Assembly (NCBI GenBank): GCA_003241215.1
Contig: QFOL01000107.1
Span: 1 to 12,020, forward strand
Length of the DNA stretch: 12,020 bases
DNA from: Agrobacterium fabrum
Lineage (GTDB): Bacteria; Pseudomonadota; Alphaproteobacteria; Rhizobiales; Rhizobiaceae
Reading direction: 5' to 3'
A program made the translations under genes and the position numbers. The notes under the pieces are model-generated. The model was given only the letters and a program-made list of their open reading frames with translations, had not been told where the DNA came from and searched no databases. Of this stretch, positions 1-12,020 are shown one piece after another (the stretch's first letter is position 1; each line of letters starts with the position of its first letter).

Positions 1-556
1 TGACGCCAAGCACGGCATAGATCGCCACATCCTTGTCGGCCAGCACGTAAGGGTTGGCAAAGCCGAAGAAATTGGAGATGGCGGCAAACAGGCCGTAATC
101 ACCGTCATAAACGAAACGCCAGATCAGGCCGGCTGCGACATCCGCCAGCACATAGGGCAGAAAGAAAACCAGCCGGAAGGCGACGACGCCTGGAATGCGG
201 TGCGCCAGCATCATCGCCAGCCAGATCGCCAGCGGGATCTGGATCAACACGGAAATCAGGATGATGAGGCCGTTATTGAGCAGGGCCTGCGAAAAGGCGG
301 CATTGCCGAACAGGACCTGAAAATTCCTGAGGCCGACGAAATCGGTCGGCGTGCCATAGCCGTTCCAGCGGTAAAGGCTGTACCACGCCGCCTCGCCCAT
401 GGGCAGAATGACGAACAGGGTAAAGAGCAGCAGGGCGGGTGGCAGGAAGACCAGAAGGGTCAGCGCCCGGTCATGCGCGACCGAACTTTGCTTGCGCTTG
501 ACCTTTGTCGCGCCGCGCGCCGGTATGGACGCAGAAGTCATGGAAATATCCGTCAT
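1..556 (-). CDS. Sugar ABC transporter permease, MalF/UgpA type (partial, C-terminus off the left edge)
   Basis: Inner-membrane permease subunit of a carbohydrate ABC importer. The leftward reading frame is open from the ATG at 556-554 to the window edge, giving about 185 residues. It has a basic cytoplasmic N-terminus, then a first membrane helix (around residues 33-52, ending FVILPMGEAAWYSLY), the family-typical stretch FVGLRNFQVLFGN, and further helices (LIILISVLIQIPLAIWLAM and the LVFFLPYVLADVAAGLIWRF region). That N-terminal pattern is characteristic of MalF-like sugar permeases (BPD_transp_1). The EAA loop that docks to the ATPase lies outside the window. The gene follows the binding-protein gene by 70 bp on the same strand, the usual order in such operons, and a hairpin lies in the gap. 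A second in-frame ATG at 541 is a possible alternative start; ribosome-binding signals are weak for both. The sugar cannot be deduced. Confidence 0.9.
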   Translation of the reverse strand, partial: MTDISMTSASIPARGATKVKRKQSSVAHDRALTLLVFLPPALLLFTLFVILPMGEAAWYSLYRWNGYGTPTDFVGLRNFQVLFGNAAFSQALLNNGLIILISVLIQIPLAIWLAMMLAHRIPGVVAFRLVFFLPYVLADVAAGLIWRFVYDGDYGLFAAISNFFGFANPYVLADKDVAIYAVLGV

Positions 557-584
557 CTCTATCCGCTTTCATTGAGGCAGATAA

Positions 585-610
585 GCAGCGCCGCACATTC
601 GCGACGCTGC
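585..610 (-). promoter_or_regulatory. Intercistronic RNA hairpin between binding-protein and permease genes
   Basis: A 10-bp stem (one G-T wobble, otherwise Watson-Crick) encloses a 6-nt loop; in leftward-strand sense the arms are GCAGCGTCGC and GCGGCGCTGC around GAATGT. It starts 16 bp beyond the binding-protein stop codon and ends 28 bp before the permease start. There is no T-run after it, so it is not a classical full terminator. In bacterial importer operons such hairpins often protect the upstream binding-protein mRNA from 3' decay and lower permease expression. That role is inferred here by analogy. Confidence 0.6.
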
Positions 611-626
611 CATGGAAACCGTCAGA

Positions 627-1928
627 TCAGCGCAATTCGAATGCATCCTGAATCTGCTGGGCGCCCTCTTCCGCGCTCATCTGGCCGGAAACGATCTCGA
701 CGGAAACGTCATTGACGACGCGGCCGACGGCGGCGCCCAGCGTCTGGTCGAAGAAGTTCTGGTGCCAGGTGGAGCCGGCAAGCTGCTTGGCCGAATCCGC
801 CAGCAGCGGGTTCTTGACCGCGCCGTCAGCGCCCGTGGCAACCGGCAGGATCATGCCGGCGGTCGCCATCTTCTCTTCGCTTTCCTTGCTGGTCAGGAAG
901 GCCGCGAAATCGATCGCTTCCTTGGAGGCGTTCTTAGTGACCGCCCAGCCGTTCAGGCCGCCTAGCGTATCGGTGGCCTTGCCGGCGCCGCCCTCGACGA
1001 CGGGGAAGGCGAAGCGGCCGATATTGTCTGCGGCCAGCCCCTTGCCGTCACCGGCATTCTTGCGCTGGTTGGCTTCCGTATTGTCGAAACCGAGAATAAT
1101 CGCCGCCTTGCCGTCGCCGAAGACACCGAGCGCCTGTGGCCAGGTGGAGCCGAGATAACCGGGCTGGAAGGGTTCGAGCTTGCCGAACTCGGCCAGCTGC
1201 TCACCAGCCTTGATGATGGCCGGGTCCATGAAACCTTCACCCTCGCCCTTGCGGGCGGCATCGAACACGGCCTGCCCGCCATTGCGCATGACGAGATAGC
1301 TCCAGTAGAAATGGATCGGCCATTTCTCACCGCCGCCGCCGGCAATCGGGACGATGCCCGCTTCCTTGATCTTCTTGACCGTGGCGCTGAAATCGTCCCA
1401 GGTTTTGATGTCCTCGGCCTTCACGCCGGCCTTGGCAAACAGCTCGTTGTTGTAAAAGAAGCTGACGAGACTGACCTTGTAAGGCACGGCCCAGACCTTG
1501 CCGTCAAACGACAGGCCGTCGATTGCGGAAGAGTTATAGGCCTGCCGAAGCTTGCCGCCATCGGCGTCGAAAACCTCGGTCAGATCCTTCAGCGCACCGG
1601 TTTTGGACTGTTCTTCGAGAACGCCGCCACCCCAGCTATAGAAGAAATCCGGCACGTCGTTGGATTGTAGGAGGGTCGGCAATTTCGCCTTGAAGGCTTC
1701 GTTTTCCAGAAATTGCAGCTGTACATCCACACCAGGATGCTTGGTCTCGAAATCCTTGGCAATCTCCTCCCAGACGGCCACGGCTTTCGGGTCCAGTTCC
1801 ACATGCATCCATTTAACGACCGTTGCGGCCGAGGCGCTTGCGGCGCCGAGCATGAGAGCAATGCTTGTCGTTGTGGCAAAGCCTGTCAGCCTGCCGCTCA
1901 GGCTTGCGCCTGCGTGCCAAATCGTCAT
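627..1928 (-). CDS. Extracellular solute-binding protein, family 1 (sugar ABC transporter)
   Basis: Periplasmic receptor that captures a sugar and delivers it to the ABC permease encoded just downstream. The preferred start gives 433 residues: a hydrophobic signal peptide ending near ASASA, then a mature protein beginning around TVVKWMHVE. Family 1 features include the opening beta strand followed by the ETKHPGVDVQLQFLENEAFKAKLPTLL region, the VWAVPYKVSLVSFFYNNELF segment, and the ALGVFGDGKAAIILGF segment that precedes the C-terminal lobe. Length is normal for the family. A longer reading from ATG 1958 (443 residues) is open, but AGGGAGG (1938-1944) lies 9 nt before ATG 1928, so the shorter form is chosen. 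Transcription probably starts in the divergent region shared with the ROK gene. The ligand is unknown; the neighbouring Gfo/Idh and ThuA genes point to a sugar or disaccharide. Confidence 0.93.
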   Translation of the reverse strand: MTIWHAGASLSGRLTGFATTTSIALMLGAASASAATVVKWMHVELDPKAVAVWEEIAKDFETKHPGVDVQLQFLENEAFKAKLPTLLQSNDVPDFFYSWGGGVLEEQSKTGALKDLTEVFDADGGKLRQAYNSSAIDGLSFDGKVWAVPYKVSLVSFFYNNELFAKAGVKAEDIKTWDDFSATVKKIKEAGIVPIAGGGGEKWPIHFYWSYLVMRNGGQAVFDAARKGEGEGFMDPAIIKAGEQLAEFGKLEPFQPGYLGSTWPQALGVFGDGKAAIILGFDNTEANQRKNAGDGKGLAADNIGRFAFPVVEGGAGKATDTLGGLNGWAVTKNASKEAIDFAAFLTSKESEEKMATAGMILPVATGADGAVKNPLLADSAKQLAGSTWHQNFFDQTLGAAVGRVVNDVSVEIVSGQMSAEEGAQQIQDAFELR

Positions 1929-1970
1929 GATTGTGATCCTCCCTGGGGATTTCCTCATTTATTCCCCAAT

Positions 1971-1984
1971 GCGGATTAATTCAC
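1971..1984. promoter_or_regulatory. Putative ROK operator, left half of a divergent pair
   Basis: GCGGATTAATTCAC matches at 12 of 14 positions the reverse complement of 2060-2073, and the first nine bases are identical. The site covers the -10 region of the leftward promoter. ROK-family regulators commonly bind AT-rich operators near their own divergent promoter, so control by the adjacent repressor is likely but inferred. Confidence 0.5.
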
Positions 1985-2006
1985 ATTAGGCCTCGCCCAA
2001 TGTCAA
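1978..2006 (-). promoter_or_regulatory. Putative sigma70-type promoter for the sugar-binding protein operon
   Basis: On the leftward strand a perfect TTGACA (2006-2001) is followed, after 17 nt, by TGAATT (1983-1978). The -10 match is poor, though the surrounding bases are AT-rich. The -10 region overlaps the left copy of the GCGGATTAA half-site, which fits repression by steric block. No transcription start is known, so this is a pattern match only. Confidence 0.5.
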
Positions 2007-2036
2007 GGCGCTATGCCGATTTTTTGCCAAAACAGC

Positions 2037-2067
2037 TTGACACACCCCTCCCCTACACCGTTATTTA
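2037..2067 (+). promoter_or_regulatory. Putative sigma70-type promoter for the ROK-oxidoreductase-ThuA operon
   Basis: A perfect TTGACA (2037-2042) is followed after 18 nt by TTATTT (2061-2066), or after 19 nt by TATTTA (2062-2067). It would start transcription about 50 nt upstream of the ROK start codon. The -10 region lies inside the right-hand copy of the GCGGATTAA half-site. This is a pattern match only. Confidence 0.5.
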
Positions 2068-2073
2068 ATCCGC
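2060..2073. promoter_or_regulatory. Putative ROK operator, right half of a divergent pair
   Basis: GTTATTTAATCCGC is the inverted, near-identical partner of 1971-1984 (12 of 14 positions, nine consecutive). It overlaps the -10 region of the rightward promoter, so one regulator could repress its own operon and the transporter operon together. The two copies are 89 bp apart centre to centre. Confidence 0.5.
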
Positions 2074-2125
2074 AACCCGATATAAATCGGCTTCACGAAC
2101 AGGCATCGATCGCAGCAGGACCCCC

Positions 2126-3325
2126 ATGAAGACCGCAGACCCAGAACTGATGCGCGCGATCAACAGGCTGAGCGTACTTGATAGCATCCGCCGCCACGGG
2201 CCGATCTCGCGGGTGGAAATCAGCGAAAGAACTGAGCTCTCCACCACCACCGTCTCGGCGATTACCGCCTCGCTGCTCGATGACGGGCTTATCCTCACCC
2301 GCCATATCGGCGATATCCGCACTGAAGGCGCGCGCGGCAGGCCGCGCGTGATGCTGGAGCTGAACCCGGATGCAGCCCGCGTGGTGGGCGCCAAGATCGC
2401 CGCAAGCCGCATGGTCTTTGTCGTCACCGATTTCTGCGGCAACGTGCTTTCAACGCTTGCCCTGCCGATCCGTGTCGACCGTCAGCCTATCGGCGTCATC
2501 GCCGATCTGGTGGAGGACGGAGTGCGGCGCTGCGTCGTCGATGCCGGTCTTTCGCTTGAGGATGTGGACATGGTCTGCCTCGGCCTGCCCGGCGTCATCG
2601 AACATCGCACCGGGAAAATCCGCAGCAGCCCGATCCTGCGCGAGGTGAACGTCAATTTCGCCGAGGAAATGACGGCGCGGCTGAATTCGCCGACCATCAT
2701 CGAAAGCGACGCCCACGCCATCACGCTCGCCCACCACTGGTTCGGCCATGCGCGTGATCTCGAAGACATGGTGCTGATTTCGCTGGAACAGACGCTCGGG
2801 CTTGGCGTTCTGCACCAGAACCAGCTGTTTCGCGGCGCCGGCGGCCTCAGCCACAATCTTGGCGACCTTGTCATCGGCCTTGCCAATGAGGGCACGGTGC
2901 GGCTGGCGAGTCAGGCGGGTGAAAACGCCATTCTGGGCTCCCGCCCGGCGGATGGGCGTTTTGCCGAGGCCATCAGGCTTGGCCGTGGCATGCAGCATGC
3001 CCATGCGCTGATTGCGGCTGAAGACCACGATCTCATCACGGCCGCTTTGCGCGCCGGCGCAGCCCTCGGCCTGACGCTTGCCAACATCGTCACGCTGTTT
3101 GCACCGCCACGGGTCATCATTACCGGCTCCAGCCTCGAACTCGGCGAACCCTTCATCGCCAGCATCCGCGACAGCTACAACGCCGCCGTGCCGCCCTCGC
3201 TGGCCGGTGTCGCCGAGTTGGTTTTCGACGTTGCGAGCGATGAATTGTGGGCGCAGGGGGCTGCGGCCGTCGCGCTTTACGAGCTTTACGAATCGCCATG
3301 GAACACCACCGGGCCGGCGCTCTAG
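2126..3325 (+). CDS. ROK-family transcriptional regulator (NagC/XylR type)
   Basis: Likely sugar-responsive repressor of the divergent transporter and of its own operon. The 399 residues, near the usual length of ROK regulators, comprise an N-terminal winged helix-turn-helix (about 12-75, with SRVEISERTELSTTTVSAI as recognition region) and a C-terminal sugar-kinase-like ROK domain. The latter shows CLGLPGVIEHRTGKI near 151-165, a DAHAITLAHHW motif near 195-205, QTLGLGVLHQNQLFRGAGG near 222-240, and the closing strand APPRVIITGSS near 327-336. The cysteine-rich zinc motif found after GxxGH in most ROK proteins is absent: the region reads SHNLGDLVIGLANEGTVRL and has no cysteine. Start ATG 2126 is preceded by AGGA and gives a standard ROK N-terminus. 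The inducer is unknown, presumably the transported sugar or a derivative. Confidence 0.93.
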   Translation: MKTADPELMRAINRLSVLDSIRRHGPISRVEISERTELSTTTVSAITASLLDDGLILTRHIGDIRTEGARGRPRVMLELNPDAARVVGAKIAASRMVFVVTDFCGNVLSTLALPIRVDRQPIGVIADLVEDGVRRCVVDAGLSLEDVDMVCLGLPGVIEHRTGKIRSSPILREVNVNFAEEMTARLNSPTIIESDAHAITLAHHWFGHARDLEDMVLISLEQTLGLGVLHQNQLFRGAGGLSHNLGDLVIGLANEGTVRLASQAGENAILGSRPADGRFAEAIRLGRGMQHAHALIAAEDHDLITAALRAGAALGLTLANIVTLFAPPRVIITGSSLELGEPFIASIRDSYNAAVPPSLAGVAELVFDVASDELWAQGAAAVALYELYESPWNTTGPAL

Positions 3326-3377
3326 CCGGCAGGCTCACGCCGGGGATTCGGCATTTCTGATTTACGGGAGGAATCAT

Positions 3378-4478
3378 ATGAAAAAAGTCGGTATCGGCAT
3401 CATCGGCTGCGGCAATATTTCCAGCGCCTATCTCAAGGCCATGGCCTCGTTTCCCATTCTCGACATTCGTGGTCTTGCGGATATGAACGAGGAGGTCGCA
3501 AAGGCCCGCGCGGCGGAATTTGGCCTGCAGGCCAAAAGCGTCGACGCGCTTCTCTCCGACCCCTCGGTGGAGATCATCGTCAACCTGACGATCCCCAAGG
3601 CGCATGTGGAAGTGGGCCTGCGCGCGCTGGATGCCGGAAAACACGCCTATTCCGAAAAACCGCTCGGCATCAATTTCACCGAAGGCAAACGCCTTGCGGA
3701 TACGGCAAAGGCAAAGGGCCTGCGCATCGGCTCGGCCCCCGACACTTTCCTCGGCGGCGGACACCAGACCGCACGCCGGCTGATCGATGAGGGCGTACTG
3801 GGCCAGCCGGTTGGCGGAACGGCCACCTTCATGTGCCCCGGCCATGAGCGCTGGCACCCCAACCCGGCCTTTTATTACGAGGTTGGCGGCGGACCGATGC
3901 TGGACATGGGTCCTTATTACATCACCGATCTCGTCAACCTGTTCGGCCCGGTCACCAAAGTAGCGGGTTTTGCCATTGCGCCGCGTAACGAGCGTCTCAT
4001 CACCAGCGAGCCGAAGAACGGCGAAAAAATCCCCGTCCATGTCGCCACCCATGTCTCCGGCCTGCTGGGTTTTGAGAATAGCGCCGTGGTGCAGGTGGGC
4101 ATGAGCTTCGATGTGGCGGGCCACAAACATGTGCCGCTGGAACTCTATGGCACGGAAGGCACGCTGATCGTGCCCGATCCCAACCATTTCGGCGGCGAGG
4201 TGCAATTGCTGAAGAAGGGCGGCCAGTTCGAGCCGCAGGCCCTGTCATCCCCCTATGCGGATGGCAATTACCGCTCGATAGGCGTCGCCGACATGGCCCA
4301 TGCGATCCGCGAGAACCGCCCGCATCGCGCCAATGGCGATCTTGCCCTGCATGTGCTGGAGGTGATGGAAGCCTTCCAGACGGCATCGGACAGCGGCACC
4401 GCCGTTTCCATCACCACCAAGGCGGAGCGCCCTGCTCCACTCGAAACATCGCTGGTCGAAGGCCAGCTCGGCAAATAA
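3378..4478 (+). CDS. Gfo/Idh/MocA-family NAD(P)-dependent oxidoreductase
   Basis: Probably oxidises a sugar or sugar derivative in the cytoplasm using NAD(P). The 366-residue protein has an N-terminal Rossmann fold (GIGIIGCGNISSAYL, residues 5-19), the family EKP motif (93-95, Lys94 being the expected catalytic or cofactor-contacting lysine), and the substrate-domain motif GGGPMLDMGPYYITD (170-184). In many family members that motif is DxGxH; here the histidine position is Tyr180, as in a subset of the family. The start is the ATG at 3378, with GGGAGGA a few bases upstream; the reading frame is open further upstream but there overlaps the ROK gene in another frame. It lies 52 bp after the ROK gene and 17 bp before the thuA-like gene, so all three probably share one transcript. 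The pairing with ThuA recalls ThuB, which forms 3-keto-disaccharides; the substrate is not determined. Confidence 0.92.
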   Translation: MKKVGIGIIGCGNISSAYLKAMASFPILDIRGLADMNEEVAKARAAEFGLQAKSVDALLSDPSVEIIVNLTIPKAHVEVGLRALDAGKHAYSEKPLGINFTEGKRLADTAKAKGLRIGSAPDTFLGGGHQTARRLIDEGVLGQPVGGTATFMCPGHERWHPNPAFYYEVGGGPMLDMGPYYITDLVNLFGPVTKVAGFAIAPRNERLITSEPKNGEKIPVHVATHVSGLLGFENSAVVQVGMSFDVAGHKHVPLELYGTEGTLIVPDPNHFGGEVQLLKKGGQFEPQALSSPYADGNYRSIGVADMAHAIRENRPHRANGDLALHVLEVMEAFQTASDSGTAVSITTKAERPAPLETSLVEGQLGK

Positions 4479-4495
4479 TTCGGAGGAGAAAATAA

Positions 4496-5137
4496 ATGCG
4501 CGAAGCACTCATCGTCTGGGGCGGCTGGAGCGGCCACGAACCGCAGGAATGCGCCACCATCGTCAAGGACATGCTGGAGGAGGACGGTTTCAAGGTCTAT
4601 GTGGAGCACTCAACCGAGGCCTTCGCCGATCCTTCGGTACATGATCTGAGCCTTGTCGTGCCAATCGTCACCATGTCGAAGATCGAGAAGGAAGAGATTA
4701 AGAACCTTACGGCCGCGGTCGAAAACGGTGTCGGCATTGCCGGTTTCCATGGCGGTGCGGGCGACAGTTTCCGCGAATGCGTCGAATATCAGTTCATGAT
4801 CGGCGGCCAGTGGGTCGCCCATCCCGGCAATATCATCGACTATCACGTCAACATCACCCGTCCCGACGACCCGCTGATGGAGGGGATTTCCGATTTCCCC
4901 TATACGTCGGAGCAATATTACATGCATGTCGATCCCTCAAACGAGGTTCTGGCAACGACTAAATTTACAGGCGATCATGCCTGGTGGATCGACGGCGTGG
5001 TGATGCCGGTGGTGTGGAAACGCAAATACGGCAAGGGCCGGGTTTTCTATTCGGCGCTCGGCCATCAGGCCAAGGAATTTTCCGTGCCGCAGATGAAAAC
5101 CATGTTCCGCCGCGGCGCCAACTGGGCGGCGCGGTGA
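4496..5137 (+). CDS. ThuA-domain protein (trehalose-utilisation-like)
   Basis: Cytoplasmic protein of 213 residues made up entirely of a ThuA domain, a fold related to class I glutamine amidotransferases but without the catalytic cysteine. Recognisable parts are the opening strand ALIVWGGWSGHEP (4-16), the nucleophile-elbow-like GIAGFHGGAGDSF (80-92), GGQWVAHPGN (103-112), the EQYYMHVDP segment (129-137) and the closing PVVWKRKYGKGRVFYSALGH (161-180). In rhizobia ThuA works with the dehydrogenase ThuB in trehalose and related disaccharide catabolism, downstream of the 3-keto product. Here it sits 17 bp behind a Gfo/Idh gene with a strong GGAGGAG ribosome-binding site, so a role in the same keto-sugar route is likely. 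It is not called thuA because the surrounding gene set is not clearly the thuEFGKAB operon. Confidence 0.88.
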   Translation: MREALIVWGGWSGHEPQECATIVKDMLEEDGFKVYVEHSTEAFADPSVHDLSLVVPIVTMSKIEKEEIKNLTAAVENGVGIAGFHGGAGDSFRECVEYQFMIGGQWVAHPGNIIDYHVNITRPDDPLMEGISDFPYTSEQYYMHVDPSNEVLATTKFTGDHAWWIDGVVMPVVWKRKYGKGRVFYSALGHQAKEFSVPQMKTMFRRGANWAAR

Positions 5138-5194
5138 GGCTATAGGAGGAGGCGGTCAAATACCAACCGCTTCAGAATGTCGAGGCAGCTCCCT

Positions 5195-5291
5195 ACCCAC
5201 CCTCCGTCATCCTCGGGCTTGACCCGAGGATCCACTGGCCTGCACAGGTAATGGATCCTCGGGTCAAGCCCGAGGATGACGGAGGGTGGGT
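5195..5291. repeat. Nested perfect inverted repeat (two 40-bp arms), REP/MITE-like element
   Basis: The left arm 5195-5234 and right arm 5252-5291 are perfect reverse complements around a 17-nt loop. Each arm also contains its own palindrome, ATCCTCGGG-CTTGA-CCCGAGGAT, so the element can fold as one long hairpin or two short ones. The loop itself contains a short palindrome (CCTGCACAGG). Elements with this CCTCGGGCTTGACCCGAGG core are familiar to me as dispersed palindromes in intergenic regions of several alphaproteobacteria. Here it lies between the convergent ThuA-like and amidase genes and may act as a bidirectional transcription end or mRNA stabiliser. No ORF or obvious target-site duplication is visible. 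Confidence 0.85.
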
Positions 5292-5339
5292 TTGAAACGC
5301 TTTCACCAACACCGAGGGCGACCAGATGTCGCCCTCTCC

Positions 5340-6698
5340 TCAGCCGCGAACGATCTCTTCCGCTGCCATCGCAACACCGAGAACATGGTCATCCGTGCCG
5401 TGCAGGCCAGAAAGCAGCAGGCCAACCGGCATTCCCGCCTCGCCTGTTCCGCAGGGGATCGAGACACCACAGAGATCGAAAAAATTGCCGATCTGGGTGT
5501 TGCGCAGGGTCTTCGCATTCATGGCGAAAAAGGCTTCGTCATCATCGATGAGCGGCGCGACCTTTGCGGCCACATGCGGCAATGTCGGTGACACAAGCAG
5601 CTCGTCCTTGCCGATCATGCCCATAAACGCAGCCGTCATGCGTTCGCGCGCTTCTATGATGCCAATGTAATCCGGCATGGAGATATTCGCGCCCAACCTC
5701 GTTCTTGCCACCACCCGCGGGTCCATCCGCGCGGCATCCACACCTTCCAGCCGCGCCTTGTGCAGGGCAAATGCTTCCGCCGTCACCAGCGCGCCCTTTT
5801 CCCTGATAAGATCGAACAATTGCGAAAAGATCGGGAATGCCTGCCGCCGCACTGAGGCGCCGGCATGGGAGAGCCGCTCCACCGCCTGTTCGAAAGCAGC
5901 TGCGACACCCTCCTCGATACCATCGAAAAACACCGTTTCCGGCACGACGAGCGACAGGCCGGCAAGAGGCTTGCGTGCCAGATCGGCAGCAGCCCTGCCA
6001 CGCATGGCGGCATCCACCCAAACGGCATCCTGCACGGTGCGGGTAAGCGGCCCGAGCGAATCGAGGCTTTTCGCCAATGGATAGACGCCGCGCATCGAAT
6101 AACGGCCGCGGCTGGCCTTATACCCCACCACACCGTTGAAGGCGGCGGGAATGCGCACCGATCCGCCAGTATCCGTGCCGATTGCCACCGGCACCAGACC
6201 GGTAGCCACAACAACGCCCGCGCCGGAAGAGGAGCCGCCGGGCAAACGGTGGCCGTCCCGCGAGACTGGATTGCGCGGCGTGTCGAAATGCGGATTGATG
6301 CCGAGACCGGAAAAGGCGAACTCGCTCATATTGGTGCGGCCGACGCAGATCATGCCCGCCTGTTTCAGCGCCGTCACCACATCCGCATCGCGGGATGCGG
6401 GCGCATCGTCCGACAGCACCGTCGATCCGGCCGTCGTTACCATGCCCTCGAGATCAAAGAGATCTTTCCAGGCCACCGGAATGCCGTCGAGAGCGCCGCA
6501 GGAGCGGCCGTCACGAATGCGTTTCGATGCCGCTTCCGCCTCCGCCATGGCCCGCTCTTCCGTCAATCCGACAAAAATAGCCTGATCCTCTTCCCCACGT
6601 ATCGCATCCAGTGTCTCTTCCGCCAGTACACGCGGATCGAGTTGGCCGCTCTGGATGAGAATGGAAAGCTGCGCGACGTTTTTGCCCCTGTGAGCCAT
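5340..6698 (-). CDS. Amidase, amidase-signature family
   Basis: Cytoplasmic hydrolase of a carboxamide to acid and ammonia; the substrate is unknown. The 452-residue protein carries the full amidase-signature triad: Lys78 in IPVAWKDLFDLEG, the cis-Ser Ser156 in LPGGSSSGAG and the nucleophile Ser180 in GTDTGGSVRIPAAFNG. The spacing of 24 residues between the two serines is as in characterised family members. Length is normal for GatA-like amidases. The start at 6698 is preceded by AGGGA (leftward strand) 8 nt upstream. It is transcribed alone, convergent with the thuA-like gene across the inverted repeat and divergent from the GGDEF-EAL gene. There are no gatB or gatC neighbours, so it is unlikely to be the tRNA amidotransferase subunit. 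It could be a catabolic amidase such as an indoleacetamide or allophanate hydrolase relative; sequence alone does not decide. Confidence 0.92.
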   Translation of the reverse strand: MAHRGKNVAQLSILIQSGQLDPRVLAEETLDAIRGEEDQAIFVGLTEERAMAEAEAASKRIRDGRSCGALDGIPVAWKDLFDLEGMVTTAGSTVLSDDAPASRDADVVTALKQAGMICVGRTNMSEFAFSGLGINPHFDTPRNPVSRDGHRLPGGSSSGAGVVVATGLVPVAIGTDTGGSVRIPAAFNGVVGYKASRGRYSMRGVYPLAKSLDSLGPLTRTVQDAVWVDAAMRGRAAADLARKPLAGLSLVVPETVFFDGIEEGVAAAFEQAVERLSHAGASVRRQAFPIFSQLFDLIREKGALVTAEAFALHKARLEGVDAARMDPRVVARTRLGANISMPDYIGIIEARERMTAAFMGMIGKDELLVSPTLPHVAAKVAPLIDDDEAFFAMNAKTLRNTQIGNFFDLCGVSIPCGTGEAGMPVGLLLSGLHGTDDHVLGVAMAAEEIVRG

Positions 6699-7041
6699 GA
6701 TGATATTCCCTGAAATCCGACAGTGCGCACAACATGCCGTTTATCGGCTGCTTGGCAAGGCCGGTCGGTGCCCGGCGCCGCAGAGAAGTCGACTTGAGAA
6801 ACGCGCAAAGGTTGTCATACTGAATTGGCGGTTTTGTTCCGGCGCATGACCGTAAGTCGGCGATTTTTTCAATCTGCGGTGCAGGAACACCGGGCTTGCA
6901 CAAGCGGCGACTATAAAAAGACGGATTAATTCTTAATCGCATCTAAACTTTGTTGAATTATTTAGCAGACACCGTTGAAATGCATGTCCTATAAAATTCC
7001 ATAAAACAATTATAACGCGACATCGCGGGGGACTATCGCGA
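6699..7041. other. Intergenic region between divergent amidase and GGDEF-EAL genes
   Basis: This 343-bp stretch has no convincing gene; the leftward reading that crosses it is in another frame of the amidase and has no recognisable protein character. From about 6905 to 7015 it is markedly AT-rich for this genome and probably holds the promoter of the GGDEF-EAL operon, with TTGAAA at 6975-6980, TTGAAT at 6953-6958 and several TATAA-like hexamers at 6990-7016. No combination has an ideal spacing. A perfect palindrome GATTAA-TTC-TTAATC lies at 6924-6938 and a CGCGA-CA-TCGCG palindrome at 7016-7027 just before the ribosome-binding site. I could not pick a clear leftward promoter for the amidase. 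Confidence 0.6.
6924..6938. promoter_or_regulatory. Palindrome, possible operator upstream of the GGDEF-EAL operon
   Basis: GATTAATTCTTAATC is a perfect 6-bp inverted repeat with a 3-nt spacer, located about 105-118 bp upstream of the GGDEF-EAL start. With its flank it shares the 11-mer CGGATTAATTC with the presumed ROK operator at 1972-1982. It may be a binding site for a dimeric regulator, but no regulator is identified. Confidence 0.3.
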
Positions 7042-9360
7042 ATGGAAGAGACTGCCTATCGGGGGATAGATAGACAGACTGAACCCGGCCACACGCTTCG
7101 CTCAACGACGCAGCCGGAAACGAGCCGCCTTTCGCGGCGACGTTCGCTCGCCAGCAAGATAACCCTGATATTTCTGGGCGGCGTGATTTTTTCCTACAGC
7201 ATCGGCGCGCTGGTCGGCTGGTATATGTTCGTTGCCGCCGCCAGCGAGCAATGGCTCAACCAGGCACGCGTCAATTCGCAGATCGCCAGCGCTACGCTGC
7301 GCAGCATCTACACCTATGTCAGCGTCACCGCCGATACGGACGGGCAGGTCAACGGCATATTGACCGACAAGCCGATCGGTGACGACGAATCCATTCTCGT
7401 CACCGGCTTCAACCCCAGCGACGTTCTCGCCCTCATCGGCGCACAAACCAAAAATGCCGTCTGGCTTTTTCGTTATGACGAGGACGATTCCGGCTTCAGG
7501 CAGATTGCGGCGGCTTTCGACAACGCCACCGACGACGATGAAAAGCCGCTCGCCACCGATCCGATATTTTCAAAAGATGCGGTCGCCGCGCGTTTTTCCA
7601 CCGGTTTTGCGACCATTGGTGACACCAGCCATTATATCGGCCTGCTGCCGATCATCAGCACGGAAACGAAGAAACCCATCGGCGCGGTCGCCGTCAGCAT
7701 CGGCGGCTCTGACGCGCTTTACGGCGCACAGCGCAAACTGATCTATAATTCTCTCGCCGCGCTGATCGTGGTCCTGACCGTCACCGGCGTGCTTGTGACC
7801 ATCATCGCCCGGCATTTCCTGAAGCCGGTCCCGGCGCTGGTGCAGGCGACACTCCGGATCGCCCGCGAGGAGACCGATGTCGTCACACCGTTTCAAAACC
7901 GGCGGGACGAGATCGGCGATATGGCCACCGCCATCGAAACCCTGCGCGAAGCGGTTCTGGAACGTGGACGCCTGCGGCAGATACGCGACATGGCGCAGCA
8001 GCTGGAGCACATGGCTCATCACGATGCGCTGACCGGACTGCCCAACCGTGTGCTGCTGATGAAGACGCTGGAAAACCGTCTCGAACAGCTTTCCGCATCC
8101 GGCCAGCCATTTAATGTCATGCTGCTCGATCTCGACCGCTTCAAGGCCGTCAATGACACGCTGGGCCATGCCGCCGGCGATGCCTTGCTGGTGGCGGTGG
8201 CATCGCGGATTTCTTCCGTGCTCGGTGAAAACGACATGGTGAGCCGCCTCGGCGGCGACGAATTCGCGATCATACAATCGGCAAGCACCGACTGCGAGAG
8301 CAGCGCGGCGATGCTGGCCGCGCGGGTGGTGCATGCGGTCTCACGTAGCTTCAACCTCGAAGGCAGCAAAATCAGTATCGATACCAGTATCGGCATCGCC
8401 TGCGCGCCGGGCCACGGCACATCCGCCACCCAGCTTCTGCAACATGCCGATCTCGGCCTTTATCGCGCGAAATCCATGGGCTGCGGTTATTTCGTGTTTT
8501 ACGAACCCGGCATGGACATGGCGGTGCAGCACAAGCATGCGCTGGAAATAGACATGAAATCCGCGCTCGAAAACCAGGAATTCGAATTGCATTACCAGCC
8601 CGTGGTCAATCTGCAGAGCGGTCGCATCGTTGCTTATGAAGCGCTGGCCCGCTGGCGGCATAGCAAGCTCGGCCTCATCGCCCCGGACCGTTTCATCACG
8701 CTTGCCGAAGAAAACAACTTCATCAAACCCTTGGGCGAATGGGTTCTGGGGCAGGCCTGCATGGATGCCATGACCTGGCCGAAGGATATCCGGCTCGCCG
8801 TCAATCTGTCCGCCGTTCAGCTCTCCAATGACGATATCGTCCCTGTCGTTGACCGGGCGCTTGAGACATCCGGTTTCCCGGCGGAACGGCTTGAGCTGGA
8901 GGTGACGGAAACGGCCATGCTGGAGCGTGACAGCAGCGCCCGAGCGCTGAAGCTGCTGAAGGAAAGGGGCGTGCGCCTCGCACTTGACGATTTCGGCACC
9001 GGTTATGCCGGGCTCAGCACGCTGACCCATGTCGCCTTCGACAAGATCAAGATCGACCGGGAATTCGTCTCCGGCCTGCCGGCCAATCCCATGTGTTCGG
9101 CCATCGTCAACACCGTCATCGACATGGCCGAACAGATCGGCCTGAAGGTGACCGCCGAGGGTGTCGAAAACAGGGATCAGCTCGAGGCGCTCAAGCTTTC
9201 CGGATGCGATGAAGCACAGGGCTATTATTTTGCCGAGCCCGCCCCGCTGGCCCGCATCCTCAGGAATCGCACCGTTATCGCGCCGCTCGCAAAGGACGAG
9301 CCCGGCGATGCCGGCCGCTCGTCACTGGAAACCAATTGCCCACCGCAAAAAGCCATTTGA
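7042..9360 (+). CDS. Membrane-anchored GGDEF-EAL protein (c-di-GMP synthase/phosphodiesterase)
   Basis: Predicted cyclic di-GMP turnover enzyme with a periplasmic sensory region, 772 residues. Order: cytoplasmic tail, membrane helix about 41-63, periplasmic domain about 64-235, second helix about 236-257, HAMP-like linker about 258-310, GGDEF domain about 320-485, EAL domain about 500-740. The synthase signature is intact (RLGGDEF, GGDEF at 404-408), but the allosteric RxxD inhibition site is missing, the matching positions reading GEND. The phosphodiesterase motifs also look complete: YEAL (532-535), NLS (588-590), ELEVTE (618-623), DDFGTGY (649-655), KIDREF (670-675), AEGVE (705-709) and QGY (726-728). 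Both activities are therefore possible. The start has GGGGGA upstream. Two periplasmic binding-protein genes follow on the same strand, the first after only 30 bp, so they may supply the ligand input. Confidence 0.93.
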   Translation: MEETAYRGIDRQTEPGHTLRSTTQPETSRLSRRRSLASKITLIFLGGVIFSYSIGALVGWYMFVAAASEQWLNQARVNSQIASATLRSIYTYVSVTADTDGQVNGILTDKPIGDDESILVTGFNPSDVLALIGAQTKNAVWLFRYDEDDSGFRQIAAAFDNATDDDEKPLATDPIFSKDAVAARFSTGFATIGDTSHYIGLLPIISTETKKPIGAVAVSIGGSDALYGAQRKLIYNSLAALIVVLTVTGVLVTIIARHFLKPVPALVQATLRIAREETDVVTPFQNRRDEIGDMATAIETLREAVLERGRLRQIRDMAQQLEHMAHHDALTGLPNRVLLMKTLENRLEQLSASGQPFNVMLLDLDRFKAVNDTLGHAAGDALLVAVASRISSVLGENDMVSRLGGDEFAIIQSASTDCESSAAMLAARVVHAVSRSFNLEGSKISIDTSIGIACAPGHGTSATQLLQHADLGLYRAKSMGCGYFVFYEPGMDMAVQHKHALEIDMKSALENQEFELHYQPVVNLQSGRIVAYEALARWRHSKLGLIAPDRFITLAEENNFIKPLGEWVLGQACMDAMTWPKDIRLAVNLSAVQLSNDDIVPVVDRALETSGFPAERLELEVTETAMLERDSSARALKLLKERGVRLALDDFGTGYAGLSTLTHVAFDKIKIDREFVSGLPANPMCSAIVNTVIDMAEQIGLKVTAEGVENRDQLEALKLSGCDEAQGYYFAEPAPLARILRNRTVIAPLAKDEPGDAGRSSLETNCPPQKAI

Positions 9361-9390
9361 GAAACCGGCCGCCGGCCAAGAGGACATAAA

Positions 9391-10284
9391 ATGCGCCTTT
9401 CAGTATTTTGCCTTTTCCTCACATGCTTTGCTCCCATCACGCCCCTCCAGGCCGCCGACGAAGGCGACACGCTTCAGCAGATCGCCAGAACCGCAAAAAT
9501 CCGCATCGGTTACCGCGAGGCCGAACCGCCTTTTTCCTACCAATTGCCGAACGGGGAAATCACCGGCTTCTCGACCGACCTCTGTCGGGCGATCAGTGAA
9601 GATATTCGCAGGAAGCTGAAGCTCGACAGGATCGAGCTCGAATATGTCAAGGCCACGCCCGCCACCCGCTTCATCCTTGTCCGCGGCGGCCAGATCGATA
9701 TCGAATGCGCAGCCACGACCAATAATAGCGAGCGCCGCAAGATCGTCGATTTCTCCTACCCCAATTTCATGACCGCGACGCAATTTCTCTCCCGCAGGCA
9801 GGACAATCTGAAAAGCCTTGCCGATCTCGCGGGACGGTCCGTCACATCCGCCTCCGGCACCGTCAATATCGAGCAGCTCAACGCCATAAACCGGGCGAAG
9901 AACCTCAATATCTCGGTGATGCCGACCAAAACCAATGAGGAGGCCTTCGAACTCGTTGTTTCCGGCAAGGCCTCGGCCTTCGTCATGGACGGCATATTGC
10001 TCGCGGCGCTGGCGGCGACATCGGAAAATCCGGACCTCTATGCACTCTCTGAGGAAACGCTGAGCGCACCCGAGCCCTATGGCCTGGTTTTCCGGCGTGA
10101 CGACCCGGCTTTCAAGGCCGCTGTCAATGAAAGCCTCAGGCATATTTTCACCGGGCCGGCCATTCACGGCCTTTATGAAAAATGGTTCACCATGCCCATT
10201 CCGCCCAACGGCATGAACCTGAACCTGCCGATGGCCGCCGCCTTGAAACAAGCCTACGAACATCCGCGCGAATACCAGGACTGA
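9391..10284 (+). CDS. Periplasmic amino-acid-binding protein, SBP family 3 (GltI-like)
   Basis: Secreted periplasmic binding protein of 297 residues with a signal peptide ending near PLQA/ADEG. It resembles the glutamate/aspartate receptor GltI from memory: IRIGYREAEPPFSYQ at the N-terminal lobe, GQIDIECAATTNNSERRK (compare FECGSTTNNVER in GltI) in the ligand cleft, ASGTVN after the hinge, AFVMDGILLAA, PYGLVFRRDDPAFK, and the tail KWFTMPIPPNGMNLNL (compare KWFKNPIPPKNLNMNF). An acidic amino acid is thus the first guess for the ligand. The start has AGAGGA upstream. No permease or ATPase gene accompanies it; instead it lies 30 bp behind a GGDEF-EAL gene and 72 bp before a paralogue, suggesting a sensory rather than transport role. 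It could still feed a transporter encoded elsewhere. Confidence 0.92.
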   Translation: MRLSVFCLFLTCFAPITPLQAADEGDTLQQIARTAKIRIGYREAEPPFSYQLPNGEITGFSTDLCRAISEDIRRKLKLDRIELEYVKATPATRFILVRGGQIDIECAATTNNSERRKIVDFSYPNFMTATQFLSRRQDNLKSLADLAGRSVTSASGTVNIEQLNAINRAKNLNISVMPTKTNEEAFELVVSGKASAFVMDGILLAALAATSENPDLYALSEETLSAPEPYGLVFRRDDPAFKAAVNESLRHIFTGPAIHGLYEKWFTMPIPPNGMNLNLPMAAALKQAYEHPREYQD

Positions 10285-10356
10285 AAGTGCCAGGCGTCAA
10301 CCCGTATCGATTTTCATGAAAATGTCTTGATGGATTATTTTGGCTGGAGATGCGCG

Positions 10357-11260
10357 ATGCAGAGATCGACATTATGGCTCATGCTGGTTTTTTCAAGTCT
10401 CCTGCCCGCGCATGCGGCCAGTGAAGATGCCCAACCGCCGACGCTTGAAACCATCGCCAAGACCGGCGCGATCCGGCTCGGTTATGCCGACCGTAACATC
10501 CCCTTTTCCTATCTGGGCGCCGGCCCCGAGCCTATCGGTTACAGTATCGAGCTGTGTTTGAGGGTGGCGGATTCCATCAAGAAGAAACTCGGCCTGCCGG
10601 CATTGAAGATCGATTTCGTCAAGCGCACCCCCCAGCAACCGGATCATGCTTCTCAATGACGGCACGATCGACATGGAATGCGTGGCGAGCACGAATACCG
10701 AGGAGAGGCGCAAGGCGGTATGGTTTTCCTACAGCCACTTCATCACCGGCACACGTTATGTGGCGCTGAAGTCGAGCGGTCTGAACACGGTTGCCGATCT
10801 TGCCGGGCGAACGGTGGTCGTGACGACGGGGACCATCAACATCACCCAACTGAACGTCATCAATCGCAAATTGGGACTGAACATCGCCGTGCTGCAAAAT
10901 GACAGCACCGAGGGTAGTTTCGACATGGTGACGGAAAACCGCGCCTCGGCCTTCGTCATGGACGATATTCTCCTGCGGTCCTTCGTGGCCGAAACCGGCA
11001 GGCCGCAGGATTATTCCATATCCAGTGAATATCTTGCTCCGCCGCAACCCTATGGCCTGATGCTCCGGCATGGCGACAGCGGCTTCCGGGATGCGGTCAA
11101 CGAGGCGCTGGGACAAATCTACGCCAGCGGAGAAATCGAGAAAATCTACGACAAGTGGTTCAACGCACCGATCCCGCCGAACGGCATCAACCTGAAACGC
11201 CCGCTGCCCGGTGATCTGGCCGAGGCATTTCGAAGGCCCGTCGATACGACCGCGGAATAA
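10357..11260 (+). pseudogene. Second GltI-like periplasmic binding protein, interrupted by a +1 frameshift
   Basis: Paralogue of the preceding gene, split into two frames. From ATG 10357 (GGAGA just upstream) the first frame encodes a signal peptide ending near AHAASED and the start of lobe 1 (IRLGYADRNIPFSYLG), then runs through a C6 tract at 10628-10633 and stops at 10657-10659. The rest continues in the next frame (IDMECVASTNTEERRK, GTINITQLNVIN, AFVMDDILLRS, PYGLMLRHGD, KWFNAPIPPNGINLK) to the stop at 11258-11260. Removing one C gives TPSNRIMLLNDG, aligning with TPATRFILVRGG of the neighbour, and a 300-residue protein. The intact downstream half suggests a recent mutation, a sequencing error, or recoding. 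A longer start at 10327/10330 is in frame but less well placed. The fragment from ATG 10646 would lack a signal peptide. Confidence 0.85.
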
Positions 11261-11289
11261 AAAACGCCGCCGGTGGCTGGCGGCGTTTT
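11261..11289. terminator. Bidirectional intrinsic terminator
   Basis: AAAACGCCGCC and GGCGGCGTTTT form a perfect 11-bp stem around a 7-nt loop (GGTGGCT). The rightward copy ends in four T, and the leftward copy ends in six T because of the A-run at 11259-11264. It begins immediately after the stop codon of the binding-protein pseudogene and 12 bp beyond the minE stop codon, so it can end both convergent transcripts. Confidence 0.9.
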
Positions 11290-11301
11290 CATGGCGTGAT
11301 T

Positions 11302-11562
11302 TTAGGCGGCGCGCAGGTCAGCGCCCAATGGTATCTCGACATCGATCTCCAATATGGAGACATGTTCGTCGCGATCCATCTTCACATGCACCCGGTCATT
11401 GTCGATCTGCACATGCTTGGCGATGACGCCGAGAATTTCTTCCCTGAGGATGGCGACGAGATCGGAGCCCGAGGATGCCCTTTCGTGGGCGAGCAGCACC
11501 TGCAGGCGTTCGCGCGCAAGCGGTGCCGACTTCTGTTTGCGGAAAAGACTGAAGATGCTCAT
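11302..11562 (-). CDS. minE: Cell division topological specificity factor MinE
   Basis: MinE stimulates the MinD ATPase and drives the Min oscillation that keeps the division site at mid-cell. The 86-residue length is normal. The amphipathic N-terminus [28 protein letters not shown] is followed by the anti-MinCD helix and the topological-specificity domain ([18 protein letters not shown] and the [21 protein letters not shown] strand pair). The start ATG overlaps the minD stop codon as ATGA, showing translational coupling. The product matches rhizobial MinE in size and motifs. Transcription ends at the shared hairpin at 11261-11289. Confidence 0.96.
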
Positions 11563-12020
11563 GCAGCCCTCCTTGCGAAGATCTTTGAGAAGATGCCGCG
11601 CTTCTCACCCGGGACAACCACAGGAATATCCTCGCCGGACAGGCGGCGGGCGGCGTCGAAATAGGCCATGGCAGGCGCGCAGCGGGCGTCCGCCAGCGTG
11701 ACAGGCGCACCGACGTTCGAAGCCCGCAGCACATCCGTGCTTTCGGGAATGATGCCGAGCAGCGGGATGGAGAGGATTTCCAGAACGTCATCGACCTTCA
11801 GCATGTCGCCGCGCTCGGCGCGGGACGCATCGTAACGTGTCAGAAGCAGGTGCTTCTCCATGCGCTCGCCGCGTTCGGCCTTCAGCGTCTTGGAATCCAG
11901 CAGGCCGATGATGCGGTCGCTGTCGCGCACCGACGAGACTTCCGGATTGGTGACGACGACGGCCACATCCGCATGGCGCATCGCCAGCGTCGCGCCGCGT
12001 TCGATTCCGGCGGGGCTGTC
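11559..12020 (-). CDS. minD: Septum site-determining protein MinD (partial, N-terminus off the right edge)
   Basis: Membrane-cycling ParA-type ATPase that recruits MinC to the poles and is discharged by MinE. Only the C-terminal 153 residues are inside the window; a complete MinD has about 270, so the P-loop lies outside. The visible part opens with [20 protein letters not shown], the Walker-B-like region and helix typical of MinD, continues with [21 protein letters not shown] and LLLTRYD, and ends in a short amphipathic tail ([14 protein letters not shown]), the expected membrane-targeting sequence. It is translationally coupled to minE through a 4-bp overlap. minC would be expected just beyond the right edge. 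Confidence 0.96.

Follow-up and report, generated by a model that had tools for sequence, protein, structure and literature searches.

What would two tandem genes for amino acid-type binding proteins be doing directly behind the gene for a membrane enzyme of cyclic di-GMP (c-di-GMP) metabolism? To our knowledge, the input is known for few c-di-GMP enzymes. The question is raised by positions 7042 to 11289 of a 12,020-nucleotide stretch of Agrobacterium fabrum DNA (assembly GCA_003241215.1, contig QFOL01000107.1, positions 1 to 12,020; hereafter the window), where a GGDEF-EAL protein gene is followed by genes for two family-3 solute-binding proteins (SBPs), here called SBP1 and SBP2. An original prediction made from the window sequence proposed that the three gene products relay a periplasmic ligand to c-di-GMP levels. 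Having compared this module with its relatives in other genomes, we consider it probable (about 0.77) that the three genes specify a periplasmic-ligand-to-c-di-GMP receptor in which the SBP pair docks on the Cache domain of the enzyme. The parts of the module are as follows.

7042..9360, plus strand: sCache-HAMP-GGDEF-EAL transmembrane protein of 772 amino acids (Pfam HAMP, GGDEF, and EAL)
7219..7746, plus strand: periplasmic sensor domain with a predicted single-Cache fold, residues ~60–235
7804..7956, plus strand: HAMP domain, residues 255–305 (PF00672, 32.5 bits)
8014..8481, plus strand: GGDEF domain, residues 325–480 (PF00990; GGDEF motif intact, GEND in place of the inhibitory RxxD site)
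8557..9240, plus strand: EAL domain, residues 506–733 (PF00563; EAL, DDFGTG, KIKID, EGVE, and QG motifs intact)
9391..10284, plus strand: SBP1, a GltI-like family-3 SBP of 297 amino acids (PF00497; best NCBIfam model NF008063, below its cut-off)
10357..11260, plus strand: SBP2, a second family-3 SBP that is frame-broken (pieces 10357–10659 and 10646–11260, two open reading frames in different frames)

A scan of named genomes, seeded with an alignment of the SBP1 proteins of the module, gave 336 relatives, from which the best 80 loci were kept by similarity. Genes for a sensor-HAMP-GGDEF protein (with or without EAL), SBP1, and SBP2 follow one another in this order on one strand in 74 of these best 80 of 336 loci, and the remaining six (L196, L198, and L200 through L203) carry permease genes after the SBP gene. 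This is the opposite of an arrangement that had been named beforehand as one that would count against the prediction, namely SBP genes lying beside their own permease or ATPase genes and unlinked to the enzyme gene in most relatives. The 74 module loci comprise 55 from Alphaproteobacteria (Rhizobiaceae and allies, Devosia, and two metagenome-assembled genomes) and 19 from Gammaproteobacteria, the latter made up of 11 from Halomonadaceae, seven from Enterobacterales (Brenneria and Edaphovirga), and one from Nitrincola. No permease or ATPase match was found between the module genes at any of the 74 loci.

Within the genus, homologues of SBP1 and SBP2 lie in tandem, as judged by coordinates, in 39 of 39 genomes. 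A GGDEF(-EAL) gene stands directly upstream on the same strand at all 30 of the same-genus loci checked, and the 1.5-kb flanks of these 30 loci gave no permease or ATPase match. With five further genomes examined through larger regions or coordinates, the enzyme gene was confirmed in 35/35 genomes, a count that leaves out G002, G018, G024, and G030. For the converse search, the sensor region of the enzyme (residues 1–312) was compared with 394 Rhizobiaceae genomes, with at most five candidates scored in each, and 18 matches were obtained in 17 genomes. The SBP pair follows every one of the 16 strong matches (E ≤1e-59, 15 genomes). The two weak matches (E 1e-16 to 1e-18) lack a nearby SBP gene, and the one that was scanned (G052, locus L112, 4981–6864) is a methyl-accepting chemotaxis protein whose Cache sensor is ~28% identical to the module sensor region. 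A phylum-wide sample of 398 genomes held 21 with an SBP1 homologue at E ≤1e-60; of these, G001, G167, and G506 have the module, and the other SBP1-homologue loci fetched from this sample are mostly beside permease genes or alone. Note that absences in the 394-genome and 398-genome searches are soft, because no more than five candidates were scored per genome. The linkage of the three genes is far beyond chance.

The three genes move together. In the A. tumefaciens complex the module neighbors the min genes; in another part of the genus it occupies other sites, and it is also carried by plasmid pAt of A. vitis and by a Halomonas plasmid. Pairwise distances of the sensor, GGDEF, SBP1, and SBP2 sequences correlate over 71 loci (r = 0.84–0.94), the pattern of genes that have been inherited together. 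In an IQ-TREE phylogeny of 116 SBPs (46 SBP1, 49 SBP2, 18 transporter-linked, and three others, with sequences >85% identical removed), the module SBPs form one clade (ultrafast bootstrap [UFBoot] 95) that stands apart from the transporter-linked homologues, and SBP2 forms a single clade (UFBoot 100) that also appears in a FastTree analysis of all 180 SBPs (support 0.99). A separate SBP1 clade was not recovered by IQ-TREE and has a FastTree support of 0.26. SBP2 may derive from the SBP1 form, and the trees are read most simply as a single recruitment of a transporter-type SBP followed by a single duplication, both preceding the spread of the module to the two classes. The linkage to transporter genes has been lost in the module.

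The enzyme proved to be, as had been predicted, a two-helix membrane protein with a periplasmic domain: in its AlphaFold model, long helices (residues 36–89 and 223–260) flank an alpha/beta domain at residues ~60–235. Fold comparison of the predicted structure identifies this domain as a single-Cache fold, by a list of matches that cannot exclude other families, and the known structure nearest to it is that of a sensor domain with formate bound. No Pfam Cache model matched the window enzyme above cut-off, and its periplasmic part is without any Pfam match; when five module sensors were scanned against the Pfam Cache models, the best result was one sCache_3_3 match of 14 bits (cut-off 28.8). 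The catalytic motifs are preserved among the relatives. Of the 74 aligned enzymes, 73 have an intact GGDEF motif, with the split gene of locus L179 as the exception, and EAL (58) or ETL (two) is present in all 60 aligned enzymes that have an EAL domain, the other EAL motifs being mostly kept. No EAL domain was seen at 15 of the 74 loci (11 Halomonadaceae, one Nitrincola, and three Rhizobiaceae), two of which (L138 and L179) have a split enzyme gene, and at these 15 loci the sensor, the GGDEF domain, and both SBPs remain. The constant parts are the sensor, HAMP, GGDEF, and the two SBPs, and therefore the SBPs appear to be tied to the sensor and not to one output. As separate observations on the enzyme gene, it is divided into frames at loci L138, L179, and L114, and the genome of Ectorhizobium quercum (G693; L106, L107; L124/L125) carries the module twice, each time with a GGDEF-only enzyme.

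The intergenic gaps of 30 and 72 bp reported for the window, from the enzyme gene to SBP1 and from SBP1 to SBP2, are correct. The two downstream genes had been described as encoding two secreted family-3 paralogues; their family and tandem order hold, but SBP2 is not one intact gene in the window. SBP1 matches SBP_bac_3, its best NCBIfam model is the GltI-type NF008063 (183.5 bits versus a cut-off of 375), and its relative in the Protein Data Bank is GltI (2ia4/2vha). Both SBP2 pieces match the GltI-type model and SBP_bac_3, the first piece falling below the cut-off for SBP_bac_3. The frame of SBP2 breaks inside a run of C near 10630–10637, and the second SBP frame is open in all 39 same-genus genomes; the break in the window is either a recent mutation or a sequence error. 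Signal-like N-termini of the SBPs were recognized by inspection of the sequence. At locus L048 of G011 (7653–10647), the module contains three tandem SBPs, not two. A 742-amino acid frame in G282 was considered as an SBP-receptor fusion and rejected, as the SBP has the usual length and the preceding frame looks non-coding by eye.

Ligand pockets were compared by numbering positions on GltI (2ia4/2vha) in 75 SBP1 proteins, 72 SBP2 proteins, and 26 transport-linked proteins (25 homologues and GltI itself). R24, R75, T92, R97, H164, and D182 have roles in the GltI pocket. R75, R97, and D182 are invariant in SBP1 (75/75) and SBP2 (72/72), T92 is nearly invariant, and therefore both SBPs look able to hold an amino acid-like ligand. 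Other positions, which are GltI-like in the transport-linked set (R24 in 25/26, S27 in 25/26, S72 in 23/26, and H164 in 24/26), have been replaced in both module SBPs and differently in each. SBP1 keeps R24 (74/75) and never S27 (0/75, with Glu in 69/75), and it has S72 in 13/75 (Pro, Ala, or Thr in 62/75) and H164 in 21/75 (Asn in 53/75). The window SBP1 conforms to this pattern, with R75, T92, R97, D182, and R24 present and with Glu at S27, Pro at S72, and Asn at H164. In SBP2, R24 is absent (0/72), Arg occupies position 70 in 72/72, and Asp or Glu replaces K162 in 62/72. These two distinct and conserved pockets suggest that SBP1 and SBP2 bind different ligands.

Published work bears on what the SBP1 ligand might be (statements on the literature, here and below, rest on excerpts of the cited papers). 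S72 and S27 of GltI contact the side-chain carboxylate of glutamate, and S72P, S72A, and S72T shift the preference to aspartate (jAspSnFR3 work; PMC10942590). The Pro, Ala, or Thr at S72 in SBP1 would by itself suggest aspartate, and the Glu that replaces S27 argues against a free side-chain carboxylate on the ligand. The glutamate or aspartate ligand of the original prediction is therefore not supported by the altered pockets and is now a weak guess. The proposed relay itself is well supported by the conservation of the three genes in 74 of the best 80 loci.

In the mechanism that we propose, two exported SBPs that diverged from one transporter-type, GltI-like ancestor would bind different small amino acid-like ligands. 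SBP1, SBP2, or both would dock in a ligand-dependent manner on the single-Cache periplasmic domain, and the docked state would pass via the second membrane helix and the HAMP domain to the GGDEF domain (to GGDEF and EAL in most relatives), where the synthesis of c-di-GMP would be set against its breakdown. Because the three-gene set is fixed and includes two different SBPs, the SBP pair is likely to be the sensing part of the enzyme. A switch resembling that of MbaA, discussed below, is possible in the module enzyme by analogy. The docking of the SBPs, the direction of the output, and an influence on attachment are inferred parts of this mechanism, as is dual input, which a receptor served by two SBPs would make possible. 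Tentatively, this could extend to a two-channel comparator, in which SBP1 and SBP2 report different amino acid-type ligands, either vying for one Cache dimer or binding it together, such that the ratio of the two extracellular metabolites sets the c-di-GMP level. We give this extension less than an even chance; if true, it would be a dedicated system whose genes have spread together through Alpha- and Gammaproteobacteria and in which the output (GGDEF-EAL, or GGDEF without EAL) can be exchanged.

Several observations weigh against the receptor reading. The figure of 74 in 80 is no rate for all GltI-like SBPs, because these loci were the best 80 of 336 and were picked by similarity to the module SBPs. 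Permease matches do occur inside the 5-kb flanks of two of the 74 loci (L137, with its own SBP, and L191, on the other strand), as do ATPase matches at eight. The clade that unites SBP1 and SBP2 has a FastTree support of only 0.46, and the high distance correlations, although they reflect co-inheritance, are expected of any co-inherited operon and are no proof of contact. Furthermore, the SBP2 frame is broken at 2/74 other loci (L176 and L179) besides the window, and a ligand may bind directly to the Cache domain, leaving the SBPs another role. These last two points favor an alternative in which the Cache domain senses a small ligand of its own while the SBPs are scavengers, or in which only one SBP is a true partner and the other a spare copy. 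Direct ligand binding is common among Cache domains, and the closest fold, as noted above, was solved with formate bound. Both SBP genes are nevertheless present at all 74 module loci, two SBP2 frames being broken, and the invariant changes in the SBP2 pocket (Arg at position 70 in every sequence, Arg24 in none) are not those of decay. We regard this alternative as unlikely, although it is the one to be taken most seriously.

It is considerably less probable that the SBPs work in ordinary transport for an ATP-binding cassette (ABC) permease encoded elsewhere and share nothing but transcription with the enzyme. Such a role would suit the descent of the SBPs from a GltI-like family with relatives beside permease genes, and GltI-like SBPs without a nearby transporter do exist: near four solitary ones in Bradyrhizobium-like genomes (L052, L121, L122, and L123), neither a permease nor a c-di-GMP gene was found, and among seven proteins flanking these four that were scanned, five belong to neither receptor nor transporter families and two are without a family. 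Ordinary transport sits poorly with the lack of any permease or ATPase match between the module genes at 74 loci, with a linkage to the sensor that persists over Alpha- and Gammaproteobacteria and on plasmids, and with module SBPs that form their own clade and have altered pockets. A functionless local gene order in Agrobacterium is hardly credible. The whole amidase-module-min neighborhood is indeed conserved in the A. tumefaciens complex, but local order is refuted as the sole explanation because the context of the module changes: its three genes remain together without that neighborhood at the other sites in the genus, on pAt of A. vitis, and in Halomonadaceae, Brenneria, Edaphovirga, and Nitrincola.

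Two further features border the module in the window.

6904..7041, plus strand: conserved leader or promoter-like DNA 5′ of the GGDEF-EAL gene (conservation across Agrobacterium-complex loci)
11265..11285, no strand assigned: terminator-like G+C stem with T tails on both strands (terminator scan; between the convergent SBP2 and minE genes)

The ~140 bp of the upstream element are nearly invariant in the window and at 11 of 12 Agrobacterium-complex loci, with L186 more diverged, and the DNA before it is poorly conserved. A 23-base core from this element, searched with up to three mismatches, occurs once per genome and at the module locus in 4/4 genomes. A 13-base core has an exact match in one of three genomes; with one mismatch it gives six sites in four genomes, four of them at the module locus and two elsewhere, and control matches numbered two. 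A regulon shared through the upstream core was rejected, the 23-base core being confined to the module locus in the four genomes searched. No Rfam family matched in the window. The terminator that had been noted after the last gene is present as the G+C stem and T tail listed above, but such a stem is weak as evidence because the terminator scan of the window returned 17 sites versus 12.3 expected in shuffles. The minE frame converges on SBP2, and minD lies beyond it on the minus strand.

The statement that no permease or ATPase gene is nearby holds for the cluster. A partial sugar-type ABC permease frame (a call made by reading the frame by eye) lies at 2–556, >5 kb off. It is part of an ordinary sugar-type cluster at 2–5137, which also includes a family-1 SBP, a ROK regulator, a GFO/MocA oxidoreductase, and a ThuA-like protein. 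Two other associations of GltI-like SBPs with GGDEF genes were seen outside the module. On plasmid p195_1 of Bradyrhizobium sp. 195 (L036, 3090–6831), a dCache-PAS-GGDEF-EAL gene is followed by a single GltI-like SBP gene, a separate association with another sensor type. At the non-module locus L200 (3570–6614; Candidatus Acidiferrales metagenome-assembled genome), a response-regulator GGDEF gene lies upstream of a GltI-like SBP gene, which is followed by one permease gene and the contig end.

As a putative receptor the module is compact, and both of its likely ligand-binding parts can be named. The SBP pair is present throughout the 39 same-genus genomes and recurs in plant-associated and halophilic Gammaproteobacteria. 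Both SBPs are open to purification and ligand screening, so that the question of which extracellular metabolites control c-di-GMP in root-associated bacteria can be put to a direct test. The module would further provide a receptor to which two binding proteins are dedicated, and it would allow GGDEF-EAL and GGDEF-only outputs to be compared naturally on a common type of sensor.

In the original prediction the arrangement was not known as a described system, and a full-text search aimed at such modules (titles and starts of abstracts, most subscription literature being outside it) likewise found no published description of tandem SBPs with a c-di-GMP enzyme. That SBPs can drive c-di-GMP enzymes is already established (PMC9602780). 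One of the closest cases is NspS-MbaA of Vibrio cholerae and Sinorhizobium meliloti, in which an SBP and a two-helix HAMP-GGDEF-EAL protein are encoded side by side (PMC9993111), and the periplasmic, HAMP, GGDEF-like, and EAL-like domains are all present in the module enzyme. V. cholerae NspS acts on the periplasmic domain of MbaA and sets c-di-GMP; MbaA without the SBP is a constitutive phosphodiesterase, and the norspermidine-bound SBP favors synthesis (PMC8079147). However, NspS is PotD/PotF-like, single, and encoded upstream of mbaA, with genes that mostly overlap and with an SGDEF motif in the enzyme (PMC9993111), whereas the module has two GltI-like SBP_bac_3 proteins, encoded downstream in the window and at 74/74 loci, and a GGDEF motif. 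ScrB-ScrC of Vibrio parahaemolyticus is similar in that one operon encodes both a dual-function c-di-GMP enzyme and the periplasmic ligand-binding protein that switches it. The order there is scrA-scrB-scrC, with a signal-making ScrA and with scrB before scrC (PMC10269520), whereas the module SBPs follow the enzyme at 74/74 loci; this comparison is by gene order.

In PruR-DcpA of A. tumefaciens, the partner PruR is a SUOX-type pterin protein whose gene lies upstream, and WX7E is a motif of DcpA-type domains (PMC13259868). The module partners are PF00497 proteins encoded downstream, a Glu eight residues after the conserved Trp71 is found in 0/74 enzymes, and a W-x7-E string occurs anywhere in the periplasmic region in only 4/74 aligned enzymes. 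In ArtI-STM1987 of Salmonella, the response of the diguanylate cyclase to L-arginine depends on both a putative arginine SBP and a Cache domain; STM1987 has dCache_1, and a linked SBP pair is not described in the excerpted text (PMC8846402), whereas the module has a single-Cache domain and a dedicated SBP pair encoded beside it. GltI (DEBP), the glutamate/aspartate SBP of Escherichia coli and Shigella, is of the same family and has the conserved R75, R97, D182, and T92, but the module SBPs lack linked transporter genes and have an altered side-chain pocket, and SBP1 of the window scores below the cut-off of NF008063. The module thus lacks defining features of NspS-MbaA and PruR-DcpA as well as the ScrABC gene order. 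The principle is not new, given NspS-MbaA, ScrB-ScrC, PruR-DcpA, and ArtI-STM1987, but no description of the tandem-SBP arrangement came up in the full-text search.

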